Shown here: positions 32,563 through 63,712 of the stretch, piece by piece | Position numbering within the stretch: position 1 is the stretch's first letter | Layout: the number at the start of each line of letters is the position of its first letter | NCBI GenBank assembly: GCA_006738865.1 | Contig: AP019701.1 | Span: 248,001-312,000, forward strand | From: Allostella sp. ATCC 35155 | GTDB taxonomy: Bacteria > Pseudomonadota > Alphaproteobacteria > ATCC43930 > Allostellaceae | Reading direction: 5' to 3' | DNA: 64,000 nt | Translations under genes and position numbers: made by a program | The notes under the pieces: model-generated | The model's input: the letters and a program-made list of their open reading frames with translations, nothing else | What the model was told of the DNA's origin: nothing | Databases searched by the model: none

Positions 32563-32648
32563 GCCCCTGTGGCGGAATGGTAGACGCGGCAGACTCAAAA
32601 TCTGTTGTCCGCAAGGGCGTGTTGGTTCGAGTCCGACCAGGGGCACCA
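32563..32648 (+). tRNA. tRNA-Leu (anticodon CAA)
   Basis: An 86-base tRNA folds with a 7-bp acceptor stem (GCCCCTG with CAGGGGC), a D-arm GCGGAATGGTAGACGC, anticodon stem-loop GCAGA-CTCAAAA-TCTGT giving anticodon CAA, a long variable arm TGTCCGCAAGGGCGT as in class II tRNAs, T-arm GTTGG-TTCGAGT-CCGAC, and an encoded CCA end. It reads UUG leucine codons. A TATGTT -10-like hexamer lies 11 bp upstream. Confidence 0.97.
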
Positions 32649-55746: not shown

Positions 55747-56087
55747 GGTCGGGTTCCTCTCCTTCTTTCGCGTTCTTGGCGACGCTGAAAGCGCTTACAG
55801 CAGGGTCGTTCGATAGCGTTCGGCGGTCTGCCCTCGGCGCTGGGTCGCCCTGTGACGGACGGGGTGGGTCGGGAAATCGCGACCGCTCGACCGGCGCGAC
55901 GTCGGATAATGCAAACTACCTGCAAACGATGCCCCTATCAAGCGGCCCCCGATCGCGCGATCGGGGCGCCCCGCCGGCTTGCGCGCGCCCCGGCCGCCGC
56001 TAGACTGCCGCCCCACACTCCAATGCCGGCCGCCCCTCCTGGTTGGGGGCAACGGGGCCGGCGTCCGGCGGCGAACGCGAAGGAAAC
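55747..56087. promoter_or_regulatory. Divergent control region between tctC and hyuA (341 bp)
   Basis: No gene is seen. The region contains a LacI-type palindrome (55786-55799), a direct repeat TGCAAAC at 55910-55916 and 55921-55927 (11-bp period), and a perfect 20-bp palindrome CCCCGATCGCGCGATCGGGG at 55947-55966. These suggest shared regulation of the transport operon and hyuA. Confidence 0.55.
55786..55799. promoter_or_regulatory. LacI/CcpA-type palindromic operator
   Basis: TGAAAGCGCTTACA fits the cre-like consensus TGWAANCGNTNWCA at every position and has the central CG of LacI-family sites. In an alphaproteobacterium it would be bound by a LacI/GalR-type repressor rather than CcpA. It lies 40 bp before the tctC start. 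No such regulator is encoded in the window. Confidence 0.6.
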
Positions 56088-58187
56088 ATGGCAGACACGC
56101 TCTCGAAGGGGCCGCGGCTGGCGGTCGACATCGGCGGAACCTTCACCGACATCGTGCTGGAGGCGGCCGGCCGCCGCTGGACCCGCAAGGTGCTGACGAC
56201 CCCGACGGCACCCGAGCTCGGCGTCATGGATGGCATCGCCGTCACCATCGCCGACGCCGGCCTGGCGCTGGCCGACATCGAGATGCTGGTCCACGGCACG
56301 ACGCTCGCGACCAACGCCATCATCGAGCGCAAGGGCGCCGTCACCGCGCTCATCGCGACCGAGGGCTTCCGCGACACCATCGATATCGCCTACGAGAGCC
56401 GGTACGACCAGTACGACATCTTCATCGAGAAGCCGCCCGCGCTCGTCCCGCGCTGGCGCCGCTTCACCGTGCCCGAGCGGGTGGACGTGAAGGGCCGGGT
56501 GCGCCTCGCCCTCGATACCGCCGCCGTCGAGGCGCTGGTGCCCGCCATCCGCGAGGCGGGGATCGAGAGCCTCGCCGTCGCCCTCATGCACTCCTATGCC
56601 GAGCCCGCCCATGAGGAGGCGATCCGCGACGTGCTGGCCCGCCACCTGCCGGACGTCTGGGTCACCCTCTCGTCGGAGGTCTGCCCCGAGATCCGGGAGT
56701 ATGAGCGCACCTCGACCGCCATCGCCAACGCCTACGTCCAGCCGCTGATGGCCGGATATCTCGCCCGGCTGGAGACGGCGCTGAAGGAGGGCGGCTTCGG
56801 CGGCAGCGTCTATCTCATGACCTCGGGCGGCGGCCTCACCACCATTGCGACCGCCCGGCGCTTTCCCATCCGCCTCGTCGAATCCGGCCCCGCCGGCGGC
56901 GCCATCCTCGCCTCCCACATCGCGGCGGCGGCGGGGGAGGAGAAGGTGCTGTCCTACGACATGGGCGGCACCACGGCGAAGATCTGCCTCATCGAGAATT
57001 ATCGCCCGGCCAGCGCGCGGGCCTTCGAGGTCGACCGCGCCGCCCGCTTCCTCAAGGGCAGCGGCCTGCCGCTCCGCATCCCCGTCATCGAGATGGTGGA
57101 GATCGGGGCCGGCGGCGGCTCGATCGCGCGCGTCGACGCCCTGAAGCGCATCACCGTCGGCCCGGATTCGGCCGGCTCCGAGCCGGGCCCCGCCTGCTAT
57201 GGCCGCGGCGGCGAGAAGCCGACCGTGACCGACGCCGACGTCGTGCTCGGCAAGATCGACCCCGCGCGCTTTGCCGGCGGCAAGATCCCCCTCTATCCCG
57301 ACCGCTCGGCCGCCGCGCTCGAGGCCGGCGTGGGCGAGGCGCTGGGCCTCGGGCCCGAGATGGCGGCCCTCGGCGTCGCCGAGATCGTCGACGAGAACAT
57401 GGCCAACGCCGCCCGCGTCCACGCCGTCGAACGGGGGGAGGCGGCGGACGCCCACACCCTCGTCGCCTTCGGGGGTGCGGCCCCGCTGCACGCCGCGCGG
57501 CTGGCGGAAAAGCTCGGCATCGACCGGGTGATCGTGCCGGTCAATGCCGGCGTCGGCTCGGCCGTCGGCTTCCTCCTGGCCCCCATCGCCTACGAGGTGG
57601 TGCGCAGCCGCTACATGCGGCTCGACGCGTTCGACGCGGGCCTCGCCAACCAGCTCCTCGACACCATGACGGCCGAGGCCGAGGCGGTGGTCGCCGCCGG
57701 CGCCGCCGGCCGCCCGCTCACCCGCACCCGCTATGCCTTCATGCGCTATGTCGGCCAGGGGCACGAGATCGTCGTCCCACTGCCGGACCGCCCGCTGGCC
57801 GAGGCCGACCGCACCGCCCTCCAGGCCGCCTACGACGCCGAATACCGCACCCTCTTCGCCCGCGTCGTGCCGACCGCAGCGGTGGAGGTGCTGAGCTGGG
57901 GCGTGGTGGTCTCGACCGAGGCCCCGCTGCCGGCGGTGGTGCCGGAGACGGCGGAGCGCAGCCAGGCGAAGGAGGCCGCGCGCATCGACGTGTTCGACGC
58001 GGAGACGGGGGAACGGGCGGAGATTCCGCTATATTGGCGGGCGGACCTGGCGGTGGGAGCCAGTCTGTCAGGGCCGGCGGTGATCGCGGAGGATGAGACT
58101 TCGACGTACGTGCCGGCGCGGTTCGGGGCTCGGGTGGCGGCTACCGGGAGCATTGTGTTGGAGAAGCTGAGCAGACGCCCGATTTGA
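56088..58187 (+). CDS. hyuA: Hydantoinase/oxoprolinase family protein, subunit A
   Basis: The 699-residue protein has the HyuA actin-like fold: RLAVDIGGTFTDIVLEAAGRR (phosphate loop 1), VHGTTLATNAIIERKGAVTALIATEGFRDTIDIAYESRYDQYDI, SYDMGGTTAKICLIEN (phosphate 2) and GPDSAGSEPGPACYGRGG, with FGGAAPLHAARLAEKLGID. With HyuB it performs ATP-dependent opening of hydantoins, 5-oxoproline or a related cyclic amide, or acetone-type carboxylation. AAGGA precedes the ATG. Its partner hyuB is separated by a 3.9-kb low-GC insertion. Confidence 0.94.
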   Translation: MADTLSKGPRLAVDIGGTFTDIVLEAAGRRWTRKVLTTPTAPELGVMDGIAVTIADAGLALADIEMLVHGTTLATNAIIERKGAVTALIATEGFRDTIDIAYESRYDQYDIFIEKPPALVPRWRRFTVPERVDVKGRVRLALDTAAVEALVPAIREAGIESLAVALMHSYAEPAHEEAIRDVLARHLPDVWVTLSSEVCPEIREYERTSTAIANAYVQPLMAGYLARLETALKEGGFGGSVYLMTSGGGLTTIATARRFPIRLVESGPAGGAILASHIAAAAGEEKVLSYDMGGTTAKICLIENYRPASARAFEVDRAARFLKGSGLPLRIPVIEMVEIGAGGGSIARVDALKRITVGPDSAGSEPGPACYGRGGEKPTVTDADVVLGKIDPARFAGGKIPLYPDRSAAALEAGVGEALGLGPEMAALGVAEIVDENMANAARVHAVERGEAADAHTLVAFGGAAPLHAARLAEKLGIDRVIVPVNAGVGSAVGFLLAPIAYEVVRSRYMRLDAFDAGLANQLLDTMTAEAEAVVAAGAAGRPLTRTRYAFMRYVGQGHEIVVPLPDRPLAEADRTALQAAYDAEYRTLFARVVPTAAVEVLSWGVVVSTEAPLPAVVPETAERSQAKEAARIDVFDAETGERAEIPLYWRADLAVGASLSGPAVIAEDETSTYVPARFGARVAATGSIVLEKLSRRPI

Positions 58188-58446
58188 GATTGTATTATGG
58201 GTGCCTGCATGTACGCTCAGGCAAGCGACGACTAGCCATCGGCCTGTTCGCGACACGGCGGCATATCGCTTGAGGCGTCTCCTTAGGATCATGGCGAAAG
58301 CCAGGAACTCAACAGTCCATCAGGCGAGCAATAAAAGGACCACGGAATGGTTGGGAATGGATAATTGGCATCCGTGACACATTTGCAGAGTCAACCACAT
58401 ATTATCAGTCTGTCGGTTCGATCGCTTCCAGGGCGAGGCACGAATT
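58188..58446. other. Left flank of the low-GC insertion, no gene seen
   Basis: The 259-bp stretch between hyuA and the GHKL gene drops in GC content. A TATTAT -10-like hexamer lies at 58400-58405 but without a clear -35. No terminal inverted repeat, tRNA or integrase remnant was found. Confidence 0.5.
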
Positions 58447-59646
58447 GTGGGGGGCGTAGTGCTCAGAATTGAGCGCGAATTCTCGCTTGACGATTTTGAG
58501 CGATCGCTTGATGTCGTGAACAGGGGCGAGTTCGTACTTCAGTTGCCCCATGTGATCAAGACTAACGCTGTCGGCGCGGAAGTTGCGCTTTTGCAGCTGA
58601 TAATCAGCTGGGCGCGAAAAGACCCAGAGCAGGCACTTCTGCGCCTGTACAGCAAAACTGACGATGGTGAGCGGCAGGCTGCATTTGCGCAGACCCCGTT
58701 TGGATTGGCGGCCTTAGTAATGGCTCGTCGCGTTCAGTCCGTATCGGGTGACAATATTGACCGATATAAAATACTGCTAATGGCGCGTAGCTATGTTGTG
58801 GCGATGGCCGAGCGTCCGTTATCGGTCTTGCGAGAGTATAACAAATCAACACTAGCCTTTTTATGTATTGATAATGCGAGAGAGTATCGTCGACCTGCGC
58901 GATTCTATATTCCTGGAACGGACAAGGTGCGACAAAGGTCCGACTTTACAAGTCTAATTCGTTCGTGTGCTGCGCTATTGCCCGCCAGCCGCAGAATAAT
59001 GCGTCATGATATATTCGATTCGGCTGGAAGCCTATTATACGAAGCTTTTCAAAACACACATGATCATGCACAGACGGATGAAATAGGAAATGTCCTTCGT
59101 CATTCAGTTCGTGGTTTACTTTTGAACTTCCAGTATGTCCGGATTGATGGTCTTGTTCAAGCGGCGGGCGACAGTGCTCCGCTCCAAACCTACTATCGAG
59201 AATGGCAGCCTGACATTGACACCGCACGCCACGCTCAGTTTCTTGAGATCGCTGTCTTCGATAGCGGTCCTGGCATGGCGCGCCGATGGCTGGCGACGCA
59301 GACTGAGCTTGCTGCCCGATTGCCTAGAGGTGGTTATCTCGACGAAGAATATCGGGCCGTAACCCAGTGCCTTCACAAAGGGTCGACTACCAAGTCGGGT
59401 AGTACAAGTGGCAATGGACTCTTTCGTATCATGCATGTGATAAAACGAATGGGTGGGGTGATTCGCATCCGAACAGGTAGCCTCTCATTGGTAAAGGCGT
59501 TTTCTGGGACTTCTGCGCCCCTGACGGATGATGACCTTGATCTGGAAGATCTTAGAAACGGTATCGCTAGAATTGAAAAGAGGGCTTGGTCCGAAGGTAC
59601 GGCGATCTCTGTGCTGCTACCAATTAACCGGGCGGTAGAGCATTGA
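58447..59646 (+). CDS. GHKL-type ATPase domain protein of unknown function
   Basis: The protein has up to 399 residues; GTG 58447 or GTG 58459 (after a GGGGGG run) may be used, and there is no ATG nearby. Its C-terminal half is a GHKL (HSP90/histidine kinase) ATP site: N-box LLYEAFQNTHDHA (Glu199, Asn203), G1 VFDSGPGMA (Asp272), and G2 loop KGSTTKSGSTSGNGLFRI (311-328). There is no HisKA or H-box phospho-acceptor and no receiver, so it is not a classical kinase. The N-terminal half (1-185) is not recognisable. It is translationally coupled to the next gene (TTGA overlap), and codon use is much less GC-biased than that of neighbours. Confidence 0.8.
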   Translation: MGGVVLRIEREFSLDDFERSLDVVNRGEFVLQLPHVIKTNAVGAEVALLQLIISWARKDPEQALLRLYSKTDDGERQAAFAQTPFGLAALVMARRVQSVSGDNIDRYKILLMARSYVVAMAERPLSVLREYNKSTLAFLCIDNAREYRRPARFYIPGTDKVRQRSDFTSLIRSCAALLPASRRIMRHDIFDSAGSLLYEAFQNTHDHAQTDEIGNVLRHSVRGLLLNFQYVRIDGLVQAAGDSAPLQTYYREWQPDIDTARHAQFLEIAVFDSGPGMARRWLATQTELAARLPRGGYLDEEYRAVTQCLHKGSTTKSGSTSGNGLFRIMHVIKRMGGVIRIRTGSLSLVKAFSGTSAPLTDDDLDLEDLRNGIARIEKRAWSEGTAISVLLPINRAVEH

Positions 59647-61817
59647 GTAATATATTTCATTTCCGGTGCAGAACCCCCGATTGTCCGCGCCGAGAGGCGG
59701 CTCTAATCTTGTTCTCTGGACCAACCGCATATGACAGAAACGCAATTACCGATGCTATCACAGAAGAGACGCGAAGATCCCTGTCACCCGAGGCAGCCTA
59801 CCTTCTGTACCCGGAAGAGACCGCCAACGAGGCGTTGGATGACCTGCGCAACTCTCCCGACGTGTTCGGTGCTCTGACCGATGATGCAGCCATCGGAGTT
59901 TACCAGTACAACCGCAGAGGTGAGATCAATCTGTTAGGGGGAATCAGAGGAAATCCCAACGATCAGATCGCTGTTGATGAGATCAGACGACAGGGGCTTA
60001 CAATCTTGTTTCGCAGGCGGGGCGGGCTCCTGGACGCGGGGCCAACAGCGCATTTTGTCCGTCCGTCGCGCCGAGCTTCGTCAAATTTCCTGCGTGCGGC
60101 TCACGCGCTGTCCGGAGGGGCCGAGATTTACTTCGCGGCCTTTTGGATCCTGCCGTACCTCCACGCTAGTATAGAAAATATTCATCTAGACACCTCGTCA
60201 ATAGCTAGCGTTGCTCTTGCTGCTCAAATTCTTAATAAAAGCACATCGTACCCTACAATACATACGTTTCATTCGTATGATGGACTGAAAAAGCACCCAT
60301 TTAGTGTTGACAGAGCTGATCTGGTCTTAATTTCTGCATCACAGTCCGGTAGTATGGCAAAGGACATCGCAAGTCGCGTAGCAGATCCGGGTCGAGTTAT
60401 AACTTTATTCTCATCTGCGGATGCTCCCGGCAACACTAAGGTAATATGCGATATTAGGCATGACCCTGAGTATAACGACAGCGGCTATGATCCGGCAGTG
60501 GAGGTTACGGCGGTAGCTAGTACAAGACCAATACAATTGTTCGGTGAGCACTTCCTGGTAAGTCCACAGCCACTGCGTTCCATAGTTCCTATCAAATCAG
60601 ATGCGCCGGCTGTCATAGCCGACACGCTCGCGAAGCTGGTTGGCAAGAACGTTCTTGTGGCCCTGCGCGCTACGGGCATAGGGGACGCCCGGAACTCGAT
60701 GTGGGTCGACATGGTAGCGCTGAAGGAGGTTGAGTGCTTCAAGTTATGGATAAAGAGAATGGTCAACAATTTCGTCCCAGCGGCCACTAGAGCGGTTGTC
60801 CAAGTGGGTTCGGACGCAGATTCCGCAGTAATGGCAGAGTCGTTAATCAACGAGATCAGAGCGCAGGGTGGTGATCTGATCGCGGTTCGTTCACTTTCTC
60901 TGGATGAGATTGAGGTTGGTCAGGCGGGTTGGGCTGATGAAGGATCTCCAGTCGTTGTTACCGGAGCGAGCGCCGGGCGCGGCACTCAATGGCTGGCGGC
61001 AAGCCGTGCGCTGCGGCAATTCGCGCCAAGGTCGCATAGAATTTATATTATGCCAGGTCTAATAAGTATGTCGGATCGCGCGGCGGATCTGTTGACAAGA
61101 AATCTAAAGCAGCCAACGTTTCGGTTGGAGGTAATGTTTAAAATCATCGTTGATCGCGAGCGTGATGCGGAAAGCTGGATTAGTGAAAGGCTGCTGCTGT
61201 TGGCGCTTCAGAATGAGGGGGCGCCGCAGGAGGTGGACGATCGAATTCGATCAATTTCCGGGGAAGCGGAAGGACGGATCAATGGGCTGTTCCTGGATGC
61301 TCCGGCGGGGGCGCTGAGACTTCGTGAAAATTTTGCGTTCTGGCCGCCGAGCGTGGTGTGCTCGGATGCGAGTCATGCGGATGTATTTGCTACAATAGCC
61401 ACGCTCGTGGAGAATATGAGGACGGGATCGGTAGATGCTGGGCAAAGGTTGTTAAATGACGCCCAGACACATAGTGTGCTAGATCCTGAAACATTCTCTC
61501 GTTACAATGATGGCATTATACAGGCGGCATTTTTACGAGCGGCGCTACCAATAGAGTTGAACTACCGAGATTCGCCTCAGGGCAGCCGGTTGATGGCGGC
61601 GCTGATGGACCAGATGATCAGGTACGCCGACCGTCAGCAGGGTGAGGCGCTCTCGGAGTTCCTCCTTGCAATCGCCTGCGGCCGCTTGCGCTTGGTGACT
61701 GAAGACTATGGTGCGTTACAGGAGGTGCTCCGACCAGGACTTCCTCATGGTACTGTTCTGGGGCGTTGGCTGGCAGATTGCATCGTTAATCGTTCAGGCG
61801 AACTGCCGATAGGGTAA
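59643..61817 (+). CDS. Large protein of unknown function with phosphoribosyltransferase-like loops
   Basis: The 724-residue protein starts at TTG 59643 overlapping the stop of the GHKL gene. I cannot name a family. Visible blocks: C9 and C14 in a short CxxxxC (RCRTPDCPR); residues ~145-240 with SSNFLRAAHALSGGAEIYFAAF, LDTSSIASVALAA, TIHTFHSYDGL and VLISASQSGSMAKDIA, which look like a sugar-phosphate or nucleotide-binding Rossmannoid; and residues ~383-460 with AVVQVGSDADSAVMAESLI and VVVTGASAGRGTQWLAASRAL, similar in layout to a PRPP loop but without its Asp-Asp. The C-terminal ~200 residues are helical. Codon use is AT-richer than the surroundings. Confidence 0.75.
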   Translation: MSNIFHFRCRTPDCPRREAALILFSGPTAYDRNAITDAITEETRRSLSPEAAYLLYPEETANEALDDLRNSPDVFGALTDDAAIGVYQYNRRGEINLLGGIRGNPNDQIAVDEIRRQGLTILFRRRGGLLDAGPTAHFVRPSRRASSNFLRAAHALSGGAEIYFAAFWILPYLHASIENIHLDTSSIASVALAAQILNKSTSYPTIHTFHSYDGLKKHPFSVDRADLVLISASQSGSMAKDIASRVADPGRVITLFSSADAPGNTKVICDIRHDPEYNDSGYDPAVEVTAVASTRPIQLFGEHFLVSPQPLRSIVPIKSDAPAVIADTLAKLVGKNVLVALRATGIGDARNSMWVDMVALKEVECFKLWIKRMVNNFVPAATRAVVQVGSDADSAVMAESLINEIRAQGGDLIAVRSLSLDEIEVGQAGWADEGSPVVVTGASAGRGTQWLAASRALRQFAPRSHRIYIMPGLISMSDRAADLLTRNLKQPTFRLEVMFKIIVDRERDAESWISERLLLLALQNEGAPQEVDDRIRSISGEAEGRINGLFLDAPAGALRLRENFAFWPPSVVCSDASHADVFATIATLVENMRTGSVDAGQRLLNDAQTHSVLDPETFSRYNDGIIQAAFLRAALPIELNYRDSPQGSRLMAALMDQMIRYADRQQGEALSEFLLAIACGRLRLVTEDYGALQEVLRPGLPHGTVLGRWLADCIVNRSGELPIG

Positions 61818-62044
61818 GAGCCACGAAGGGTTGGTCGCGGCTAGAAGCAGCTGTACGCCAAGGGGTGTTTGGCGATTTGTGTTGTGCGTGTATCGTCGGT
61901 GTCGACGTAGGGTGGCGCCGTCGAACTTTCGAGTTCGGGCAGGCGGCTTGGGTCGTGTAAGGCGGGTCGGTTCTTCGTGCTCGCGCTGATCCTGGCCCGT
62001 TGCACTCTCGCCATATAGTCCATCGCGCCTCAGGATCCCGCCCC
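61818..62044. other. Right flank of the low-GC insertion
   Basis: This 227-bp gap between the insertion and hyuB contains a stable hairpin CGAACT-TTCG-AGTTCG (61922-61937, a UUCG tetraloop), which may slow or end transcription from the insertion, though no T-tract follows. GC content rises to the chromosomal level before the hyuB start. Confidence 0.5.
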
Positions 62045-63712
62045 ATGCCCCGCTCCAACACCCTCTCCCAGATCCATACCCAGATCATGTGGAACCGCCT
62101 GATCGCGGTCGTCGAGGAGCAGGCGCAGACCCTGATCCGCACGGCGTTCAGCCCGATCGTGCGCGAGTGCGGCGACCTGTCGGCGGGGGTGTTCGACCTC
62201 AGGGGCCGCATGCTGGCGCAGGCGGTGACGGGCACGCCCGGCCACGTCAACTCGATGGCGGAATCGGTGAAACACTTCCTTCGCCACTTCCCGGTCGAGA
62301 CGATGGAGGAGGGCGACATCTACATCACCAACGACCCGTGGATGGGCACGGGCCACCTGAATGATTTCGTGCTGACGACGCCCTGCTTCCACCGCGGCAA
62401 GCTGGTGGCGCTCCTCTCCTGCACCAGCCACCTCATGGACATCGGCGGCATCGGCTTCGGGCCGGACGGCAGCGACGTCTTCATGGAGGGGCTCTATATC
62501 CCCATGCTCAAGCTGGCCGAGCGCGGCCAGATGAACGAGACGCTGCTGGCGATGATCCGCGCCAACACGCGCCTGCCGGTCGACACCGAGGGCGACGTCT
62601 ATTCGCTCGCCGCCTGCAACGACGTCGGCTGCAAGCGGCTGGCCGAGATGATGGACGAGTTCGGGCTCGACAGCCTCGACGACCTGGCCGAGCACATCAT
62701 CCACCACTCGCGCGAGGCGGTGCTGGCGGAAATCCGCCGCCTGCCCCAGGGCTCCTGGAGCTTCGCCATGACGGTCGACGGGTTCGACCAGCCGATCGAC
62801 CTCGCCGCCACCGTCACCGTCTCGGCCACCGGCATCCATGTCGACTACACCGGCACCTCGCCCGCCTCCTCCAAGGGCATCAACGTGCCGATCGCCTATA
62901 CGACGGCCTATACCTGCTTCGGCCTCGGCTGCGTCGTCGCCGCCCAGATCCCGAACAATGCCGGCTCGCTGGAGCCGCTGACGGTCTCCGCACCCCCCGG
63001 CACCATCCTGAATGCGCCCTATCCGCTGCCCGTCTCCTCCCGCCACATCACCGGCCAGATGCTGCCCGACATGGTCTTCGGCTGCCTGCGCCAGGTGGTG
63101 CCGGAGCGGGTGCCGGCGGAGGGCACGTCGTGCCTCTACAACATGACCTTCCGCGGCCCCTCGGCCGACCGGCCGGACAGCAAGTACGGCTTTGCCGTCA
63201 CCATCACGTCGAACGGCGGCACCGGCGCGCGGCCGGCCAAGGACGGGCTGTCGGCGACGGCCTATCCGTCGGGCGTGCGCGGCACCCCGGTCGAGATCGC
63301 GGAATCGGTGACGCCCCTCATCTTCTGGCGCAAGGAGCTGCGGCCGGATTCGGGCGGCGCCGGTATGACGCGCGGCGGCCTCGGCCAGGTGATCGAGATC
63401 GAGAGCGCGGACGGCCTGCCGGTCGAGCTGCTCGCCGCCTTCGACCGCATCGACCATCCGCCGCGCGGGCGCGACGGCGGGCGGGACGGGGCGGCCGGTT
63501 CGGTGGCGCTCGCGTCGGGCCAGCGCCTCCGCGGCAAGGGCTCCCAGATGGTGCCGCCGGGCGAGCGGTTGATCATCCAGACGCCGGGGGGTGCGGGCAT
63601 CGGCGACCCGGCCGGCCGGGCGCGCGATGCCCTCGCGGCCGACCTCCGCGACGGGCTGGTGACGGCGGACGCCGCCGCCCGCATCTACGGCGCCGCCGAG
63701 GCGGCCGAGTAG
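62045..63712 (+). CDS. hyuB: Hydantoinase/oxoprolinase family protein, subunit B
   Basis: The 555-residue protein has HyuB features: EEQAQTLIRTAFSPIVRECGDLSAGVFD, GTPGHVNSMAESVKHFL, GDIYITNDPWMGTGHLNDFVLTTPCF, SSKGINVPIAYTTAYTCFGLGCVV, and a C-terminal glycine-rich IQTPGGAGIGDPAGR. HyuB works with HyuA. It is complete at the N-terminus and has normal GC content, so the insertion upstream has not damaged it. The ATG at 62045 begins at the conserved start of the family. Confidence 0.94.
   Translation: MPRSNTLSQIHTQIMWNRLIAVVEEQAQTLIRTAFSPIVRECGDLSAGVFDLRGRMLAQAVTGTPGHVNSMAESVKHFLRHFPVETMEEGDIYITNDPWMGTGHLNDFVLTTPCFHRGKLVALLSCTSHLMDIGGIGFGPDGSDVFMEGLYIPMLKLAERGQMNETLLAMIRANTRLPVDTEGDVYSLAACNDVGCKRLAEMMDEFGLDSLDDLAEHIIHHSREAVLAEIRRLPQGSWSFAMTVDGFDQPIDLAATVTVSATGIHVDYTGTSPASSKGINVPIAYTTAYTCFGLGCVVAAQIPNNAGSLEPLTVSAPPGTILNAPYPLPVSSRHITGQMLPDMVFGCLRQVVPERVPAEGTSCLYNMTFRGPSADRPDSKYGFAVTITSNGGTGARPAKDGLSATAYPSGVRGTPVEIAESVTPLIFWRKELRPDSGGAGMTRGGLGQVIEIESADGLPVELLAAFDRIDHPPRGRDGGRDGAAGSVALASGQRLRGKGSQMVPPGERLIIQTPGGAGIGDPAGRARDALAADLRDGLVTADAAARIYGAAEAAE

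Follow-up and report, generated by a model that had tools for sequence, protein, structure and literature searches.

Candidate anti-phage systems of the PDC series in PADLOC were nominated by a guilt-by-embedding screen, and most of them are without experimental validation (PMC12988326). Two other described cases lie close to the locus treated here: VcSduA, a Shedu protein with an N-terminal GHKL domain, in which the GHKL ATPase is proposed to control a defence effector (PMC12137116), and the core defense hotspots of Pseudomonas aeruginosa, chromosomal sites where conserved flanking genes enclose variable defence-like cargo (PMC10250203). We analysed a 64,000-nt stretch of the Allostella sp. 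ATCC 35155 genome (contig AP019701.1, positions 248,001 to 312,000; hereafter the window), in which hyuA and hyuB are separated by two genes, M65A and M65B. An earlier note on this DNA had read the pair as a horizontally acquired defence or conflict module, to which it could give the name of no described system. Acquisition is upheld by the comparisons below and the defence role is supported by guilt-by-association; on the name the note is corrected, as PADLOC already lists the pair as PDC-M65, an unvalidated candidate. With a probability of roughly 60%, we regard the locus as a horizontally acquired PDC-M65, a candidate anti-phage module, lying in a hyuA-hyuB hotspot and consisting of a GHKL ATPase that gates a phosphoribosyltransferase (PRTase)-derived partner.

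M65A matched its PADLOC profile over positions 14-395 of 398 (E 2.8e-37) and M65B over positions 4-738 of 763 (E 2.6e-88). The genes are adjacent in the order A-B, as in PDC-M65, and both order and overlap agree with those of ~90 relatives; judged by these sequence matches, the pair is a member of this catalogued but unvalidated family. Compared with most PDC-M65, it falls in a divergent alphaproteobacterial subclade with ~25% identity to most members, in which domain 1 no longer has its CxxC motif. What the present analysis adds is the hotspot evidence, a fold assignment, the disabled loops of the phosphoribosyl pyrophosphate (PRPP) type and a set of named residues. As the earlier note had described, the two genes occupy the 3857-nt gap on the same strand as hyuA and hyuB, overlap by 4 nt, and lie between an intact hyuA (end 58187) and an intact hyuB (start 62045). 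The features are as follows.

56043-58187, + strand: hyuA, left border of the hotspot (Pfam PF05378, PF01968, PF19278; domains Hydant_A_N, Hydantoinase_A, Hydant_A_C); the true start is probably near 56088, and DNA identity to the sister species is 83-88% up to 58163.
58164-58446, + strand: left junction and cargo leader; sister-species homology ends at 58163, and a promoter-like match at 58374-58403 is weak, not above chance expectation.
58447-59646, + strand: M65A, GHKL ATPase gene (PDLC04764); GTG at 58459 is a possible alternative start.
59643-61817, + strand: M65B, 724-aa PRTase-derived partner (PDLC04765), with a TTG start.
59997-60572, + strand: M65B domain 1, orotate-PRTase-like (residues ~119-310; hhalign and Foldseek).
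60954-61016, + strand: second PRTase-like loop of M65B, VVTGASAGRGTQWLAASRALR (residues 438-458; alignment with L025 and Cupriavidus pHG1).
61500-61660, + strand: C-terminal helical region of M65B, with R620, D623, Q627, R632 and E672 invariant in the 81-sequence alignment.
61856-61874, + strand: possible terminator hairpin 3′ of M65B (one consensus match, not above chance expectation).
62045-63712, + strand: hyuB, right border of the hotspot (Pfam PF02538, Hydantoinase_B, E 3.7e-155); its ATG at 62045 is the start position of its homologues.

A genome scan confirmed 165 relatives, of which 80 were kept; plasmids and other genomes contributed ~15 further ones, for ~95 loci in total. Most of the kept relatives belong to Proteobacteria or Bacteroidota, and a Planctomyces bin is also among them. 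Wherever the contig reaches that far, a GHKL gene lies directly upstream of M65B, usually with a 1- or 4-nt overlap; loci without one abut the end of their contig, and L052 and L045 appear to be frameshift-split. Furthermore, family distances of M65A and M65B are tightly correlated (r = 0.93; none of 999 permutations gave a value above 0.09). M65A and M65B form an invariant overlapping operon. Annotated phage records yielded no relative, and one IMG/VR contig has the pair. Neither protein gave a PADLOC or Pfam match to an ABC ATPase or PD-(D/E)xK component of the kind found in ABC-3C, Shedu or Gabija.

M65A is a GHKL ATPase that lacks a phospho-acceptor, as the earlier note had held from its motifs. 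The boxes E199xxxN203, D272xGxG276 and G322xG324 are present, and their defining residues (E199/N203, D272-G274-G276 and G322/G324) are invariant in 72 sequences. The AlphaFold model (predicted local distance difference test, pLDDT, 92.8) has the ATP-binding domains of CckA and CheA among its best PDB folds in Foldseek, at weak E-values of ~0.01, and contains no DHp phospho-acceptor helices; Pfam gives only a weak HATPase_c match (E 0.1). We also considered a sensor histidine kinase and rejected it, as the model is without a DHp domain bearing a phospho-acceptor His. VcSduA joins its GHKL domain to a PD-(D/E)xK nuclease in one protein, whereas here the GHKL protein is separate, and no search identified its partner as a nuclease.

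For M65B, the description as a large unassigned protein stands in part: PDB sequence searches (with single proteins and with profiles), Pfam and NCBIfam gave no assignment, so the protein is assignable only by fold and profile-profile comparison, which recognised a PRTase-like domain. Its AlphaFold model (pLDDT 93.5) has orotate phosphoribosyltransferases as top PDB matches in Foldseek (best 4ohc, E 5e-5, probability 1.00), and the PDC-M65B profile independently picked up housekeeping PRTase genes. Residues 119-310 align with housekeeping PRTases over 173 columns (hhalign, E 6.2e-9, probability 96%), an alignment that takes in the strip HFVLSSGRHS and, in most relatives, a terminal CPxCxxG as well. 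M65B thus resembles PyrE in fold, in the N-terminal HFxxxSGxHSxxF strip and, for most family members, in the C-terminal CPxCxxG; it differs in having Ser-Ala in place of the acidic PRPP pair (ED/DD), in the absence of the catalytic loop Lys, in ~500 extra residues and in its GHKL ATPase partner. Specifically, the PRPP loop of PRTases, LLVVEDVITTGGS, becomes LVLISASQSGS in M65B (LVLISASQSG at 60321-60350), in which Ser231-Ala232 replace the acidic pair, Ser231 is invariant in 81 relatives, and the phosphate-binding Ser/Thr/Gly part is kept. Nothing in the M65B alignment corresponds to the flexible-loop lysine of orotate PRTase. An active orotate phosphoribosyltransferase was rejected as an identity for M65B, the fold being present and the acidic pair of the PRPP loop absent.

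At the second loop (residues 438-458), no acidic pair is found among the common residues of the 81 relatives, and a sister family (G325 and Cupriavidus pHG1) has Asp-Asp at this position. The large protein of the G325 pair is homologous to M65B nearly end to end (E 2.9e-26), and its GHKL partner to M65A (E 4.9e-11). The sister-family loci lie at L025:61-3302 and L156:3626-7043; a search for more Asp-Asp members within the family's own class gave only the original, and one more was found on plasmid pHG1. Internal duplication of domain 1 into domain 2 reached an hhalign probability of 13%, a weak value from which we make no claim. Among PRTase domains of conflict systems, PRTase-CE (PF24390) and PRTase_2 (PF15609) share with domain 2 of the sister family a PRTase-type loop; they were matched weakly by single relatives (E 0.074 and 0.29), and differ in that the window M65B has no significant match to them and has lost the acidic residues. 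M65B therefore comprises an orotate-PRTase-like domain, a second PRTase-like loop and a C-terminus that is helical and invariant; the acidic residues that bind PRPP are missing from both the domain and the loop.

The hyuA-hyuB junction was compared, as the earlier note had suggested, in four genomes of the genus, namely the window genome and three sister species (G001, G002 and G003), all of which carry intact hyuA and hyuB orthologues at 82-88% DNA identity. Homology to the sister species stops at ~58163 and starts again at ~62031, and none of their three genomes holds an M65B gene. G002 has its hyuA and hyuB blocks ~76 bp apart, an empty site. The G003 gap spans 4.3 kb (50.8% G+C) with three genes on the strand opposite to hyu (L014:5225-8831), encoding an alpha/beta-hydrolase with CTD9, an ABC-3C middle component (MC5) and an SMC-like ATPase matching LmuB; this cargo is, by its predicted proteins, an ABC-three-component, Lamassu-like set. 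The G001 gap spans 2.1 kb (50.9% G+C) with one open reading frame of 222 aa (L015:5647-6315), for which no model match and no relatives among plasmids were found and whose R-N-x-x-A-H motif is HEPN-like by eye only. The same junction holds, in each of three species, a low-GC cargo unrelated to the other two, and it is a hotspot without a recombinase in which each species has a different cargo or none. Like the core defense hotspots of P. aeruginosa it combines conserved flanks with variable defence-like cargo; unlike them it sits inside a hydantoinase/oxoprolinase gene pair, in a little-sampled alphaproteobacterial genus, and is defined here from four genomes. A metabolic gene pair that takes cargo without a visible recombinase makes a compact hotspot that can be mined in this genus.

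The last hyuA codons (58130-58187) read LEKLSRRPI here versus LERRGG, LERRAG or LERRA in the sister species, which places the start of the replaced segment inside the end of hyuA and refines the left border given in the earlier note. Because no significant terminal repeats were found at the cargo ends and no integrase or tRNA at the site (the only tRNA of the window is at 32563), the cargo probably entered by homologous recombination in the flanks. hyuA and hyuB are adjacent in a paralogous pair of G002 and in pairs of G004, G006, G030 and G031. A further group of hyuB orthologues or paralogues (family f2, L136-L148; 57-59% identity) has no hyuA within the flank examined (up to 1.5 kb), and hyuAB adjacency is therefore not universal in the order; these genes were rejected as split hyuAB pairs, being lone or differently arranged paralogues.

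Base composition sets the cargo apart from its borders. M65A and M65B have a G+C of 52.7% versus 72.4% for hyuA and 70.6% for hyuB (window mean 0.696), and their G+C at third codon positions is 0.49 and 0.54 versus 0.93 and 0.96; hand counts in the earlier note (30 of 60 G+C at 58801-58860, 45 of 60 at 57481-57540) proved exact on recount. The pair region is the lowest-G+C 3.4-kb stretch of the window (0.522; beyond the gap no stretch of that length falls below 0.668), and across the family the pair has a lower G+C than its distant flanks in 62 of 71 loci. The genome, a single 5.34-Mb contig, holds the pair once, and the closest relatives are in Roseomonas (49% identity), Caulobacter (45%), Acetobacter (43%) and Falsigemmobacter (38%), genera of different orders. 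Conservation of the pair across the clade with matching G+C was looked for and not seen. Horizontal acquisition is supported by the empty site, by the absence of a copy from all three sister species, by closest relatives that belong to other orders of Alphaproteobacteria and by the low G+C; the strict upstream position of the GHKL gene and the correlated distances, together with these cross-order relatives and this composition, fit transfer as a two-gene unit.

The PDC-M65 family associates with defence systems. The pair lies 3 bp ahead of a type I restriction subunit in one locus (L117), 50 bp ahead of a type I methylase in another (L096), and beside type I specificity subunits in two (L114, L059); it directly follows HmaC (L112), has Gabija GajB nearby (L124), precedes Qat (L044) or has a QatC-like gene downstream (L056). 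On the 86-kb IMG/VR viral contig (L154:1222-9498), the pair is followed by a gene that looks NACHT-like by eye and then by PDC-S25, a gene of the SIR2 type, and on Cupriavidus pHG1 the divergent sister pair adjoins AVAST type 1. As raw counts with no background model, a type I methylase gene cluster occurs near 9 loci and a type I restriction subunit cluster near 8. In addition, thyX shares the operon with the pair in five rhizobial loci, standing upstream of it in four and downstream in the fifth, from Bosea, and dgt lies beside the pair on one Rhizobium plasmid; as a lead, these neighbours suggest deoxynucleotide or thymidylate pools.

The M65 pair is likely a defence module, and its action is probably abortive. 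M65A would serve as an ATP-driven dimerisation switch that holds M65B in check. Since the Ser/Thr/Gly phosphate loop remains and the catalytic residues are gone, M65B may bind a nucleotide or another phosphate-bearing ligand and may thereby sense a phage-induced change in the nucleotide pool; the activated complex would then stop growth of the infected cell, the activity probably residing in the conserved C-terminal half. In the rhizobial versions, the thyX of the operon might adjust or bypass a thymidylate shortage. That PDC-M65 is an immune system whose PRTase-fold subunit lost catalysis at both PRPP-like loops and was repurposed as a GHKL-gated sensor of nucleotide pools (perhaps thymidylate, given operonic thyX) is a tentative proposal, which we hold at well below even odds. 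If true, PDC-M65 would sense nucleotides through a pseudoenzyme, which no defence mechanism described so far does. The analysis gives an anonymous database candidate a testable form, a defence complex that joins a GHKL ATPase to a nucleotide-biosynthesis enzyme stripped of its catalysis, and names residues to mutate and a nucleotide-pool trigger to test. The following points count against the defence interpretation and its mechanism: no paper on PDC-M65 and no phage assay for any member were found in the literature, the second PRTase-like domain is based on a weak profile match and the DD loop of the sister family, and thyX occurs in only 5 of ~95 loci.

M65B might instead be an active phosphoribosyltransferase effector that uses up PRPP or modifies bases, starving phage replication under a GHKL regulator. 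Depletion of the dGTPase type is a known defence strategy, and the adjoining dgt in Rhizobium, the PRTase fold itself and the Asp-Asp that the sister family keeps in domain 2 all favour such an effector; yet 0 of 81 aligned PDC-M65B sequences have an acidic pair in either loop, and with Ser231 invariant and the flexible-loop lysine lacking a counterpart we consider it unlikely. A toxin-antitoxin or addiction pair that stabilises mobile elements, with phage defence secondary, would account for the strict two-gene overlap and for those relatives that lie on plasmids or near integrases and transposases. Both proteins, however, are large and enzyme-like, and the window pair stands alone at a chromosomal spot without an element, where a sister species has other defence-like cargo; this makes addiction more doubtful still. 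The PRTase fold, the orientation shared with hyuA and hyuB, and the rhizobial thyX and dgt neighbours could also point to an accessory regulator of nucleotide or hydantoin metabolism that merely chances to lie in the hyu operon, but the pair is missing from all three sister species with their intact hyuAB orthologues, is patchy across distant phyla, mismatches its surroundings in G+C and shares its site with other insertions, so that we find this very improbable. We accordingly prefer the GHKL-gated PDC-M65 defence module.

Two details of individual loci may be added. The thyX-bearing loci are L043:3867-4817, L050:3880-4818, L071:7543-8481, L072:7832-8818 and L078:12275-13210. At L114:7264-15311, the pair has a type I specificity gene on one side and a large gene for a UvrD-like helicase on the other.

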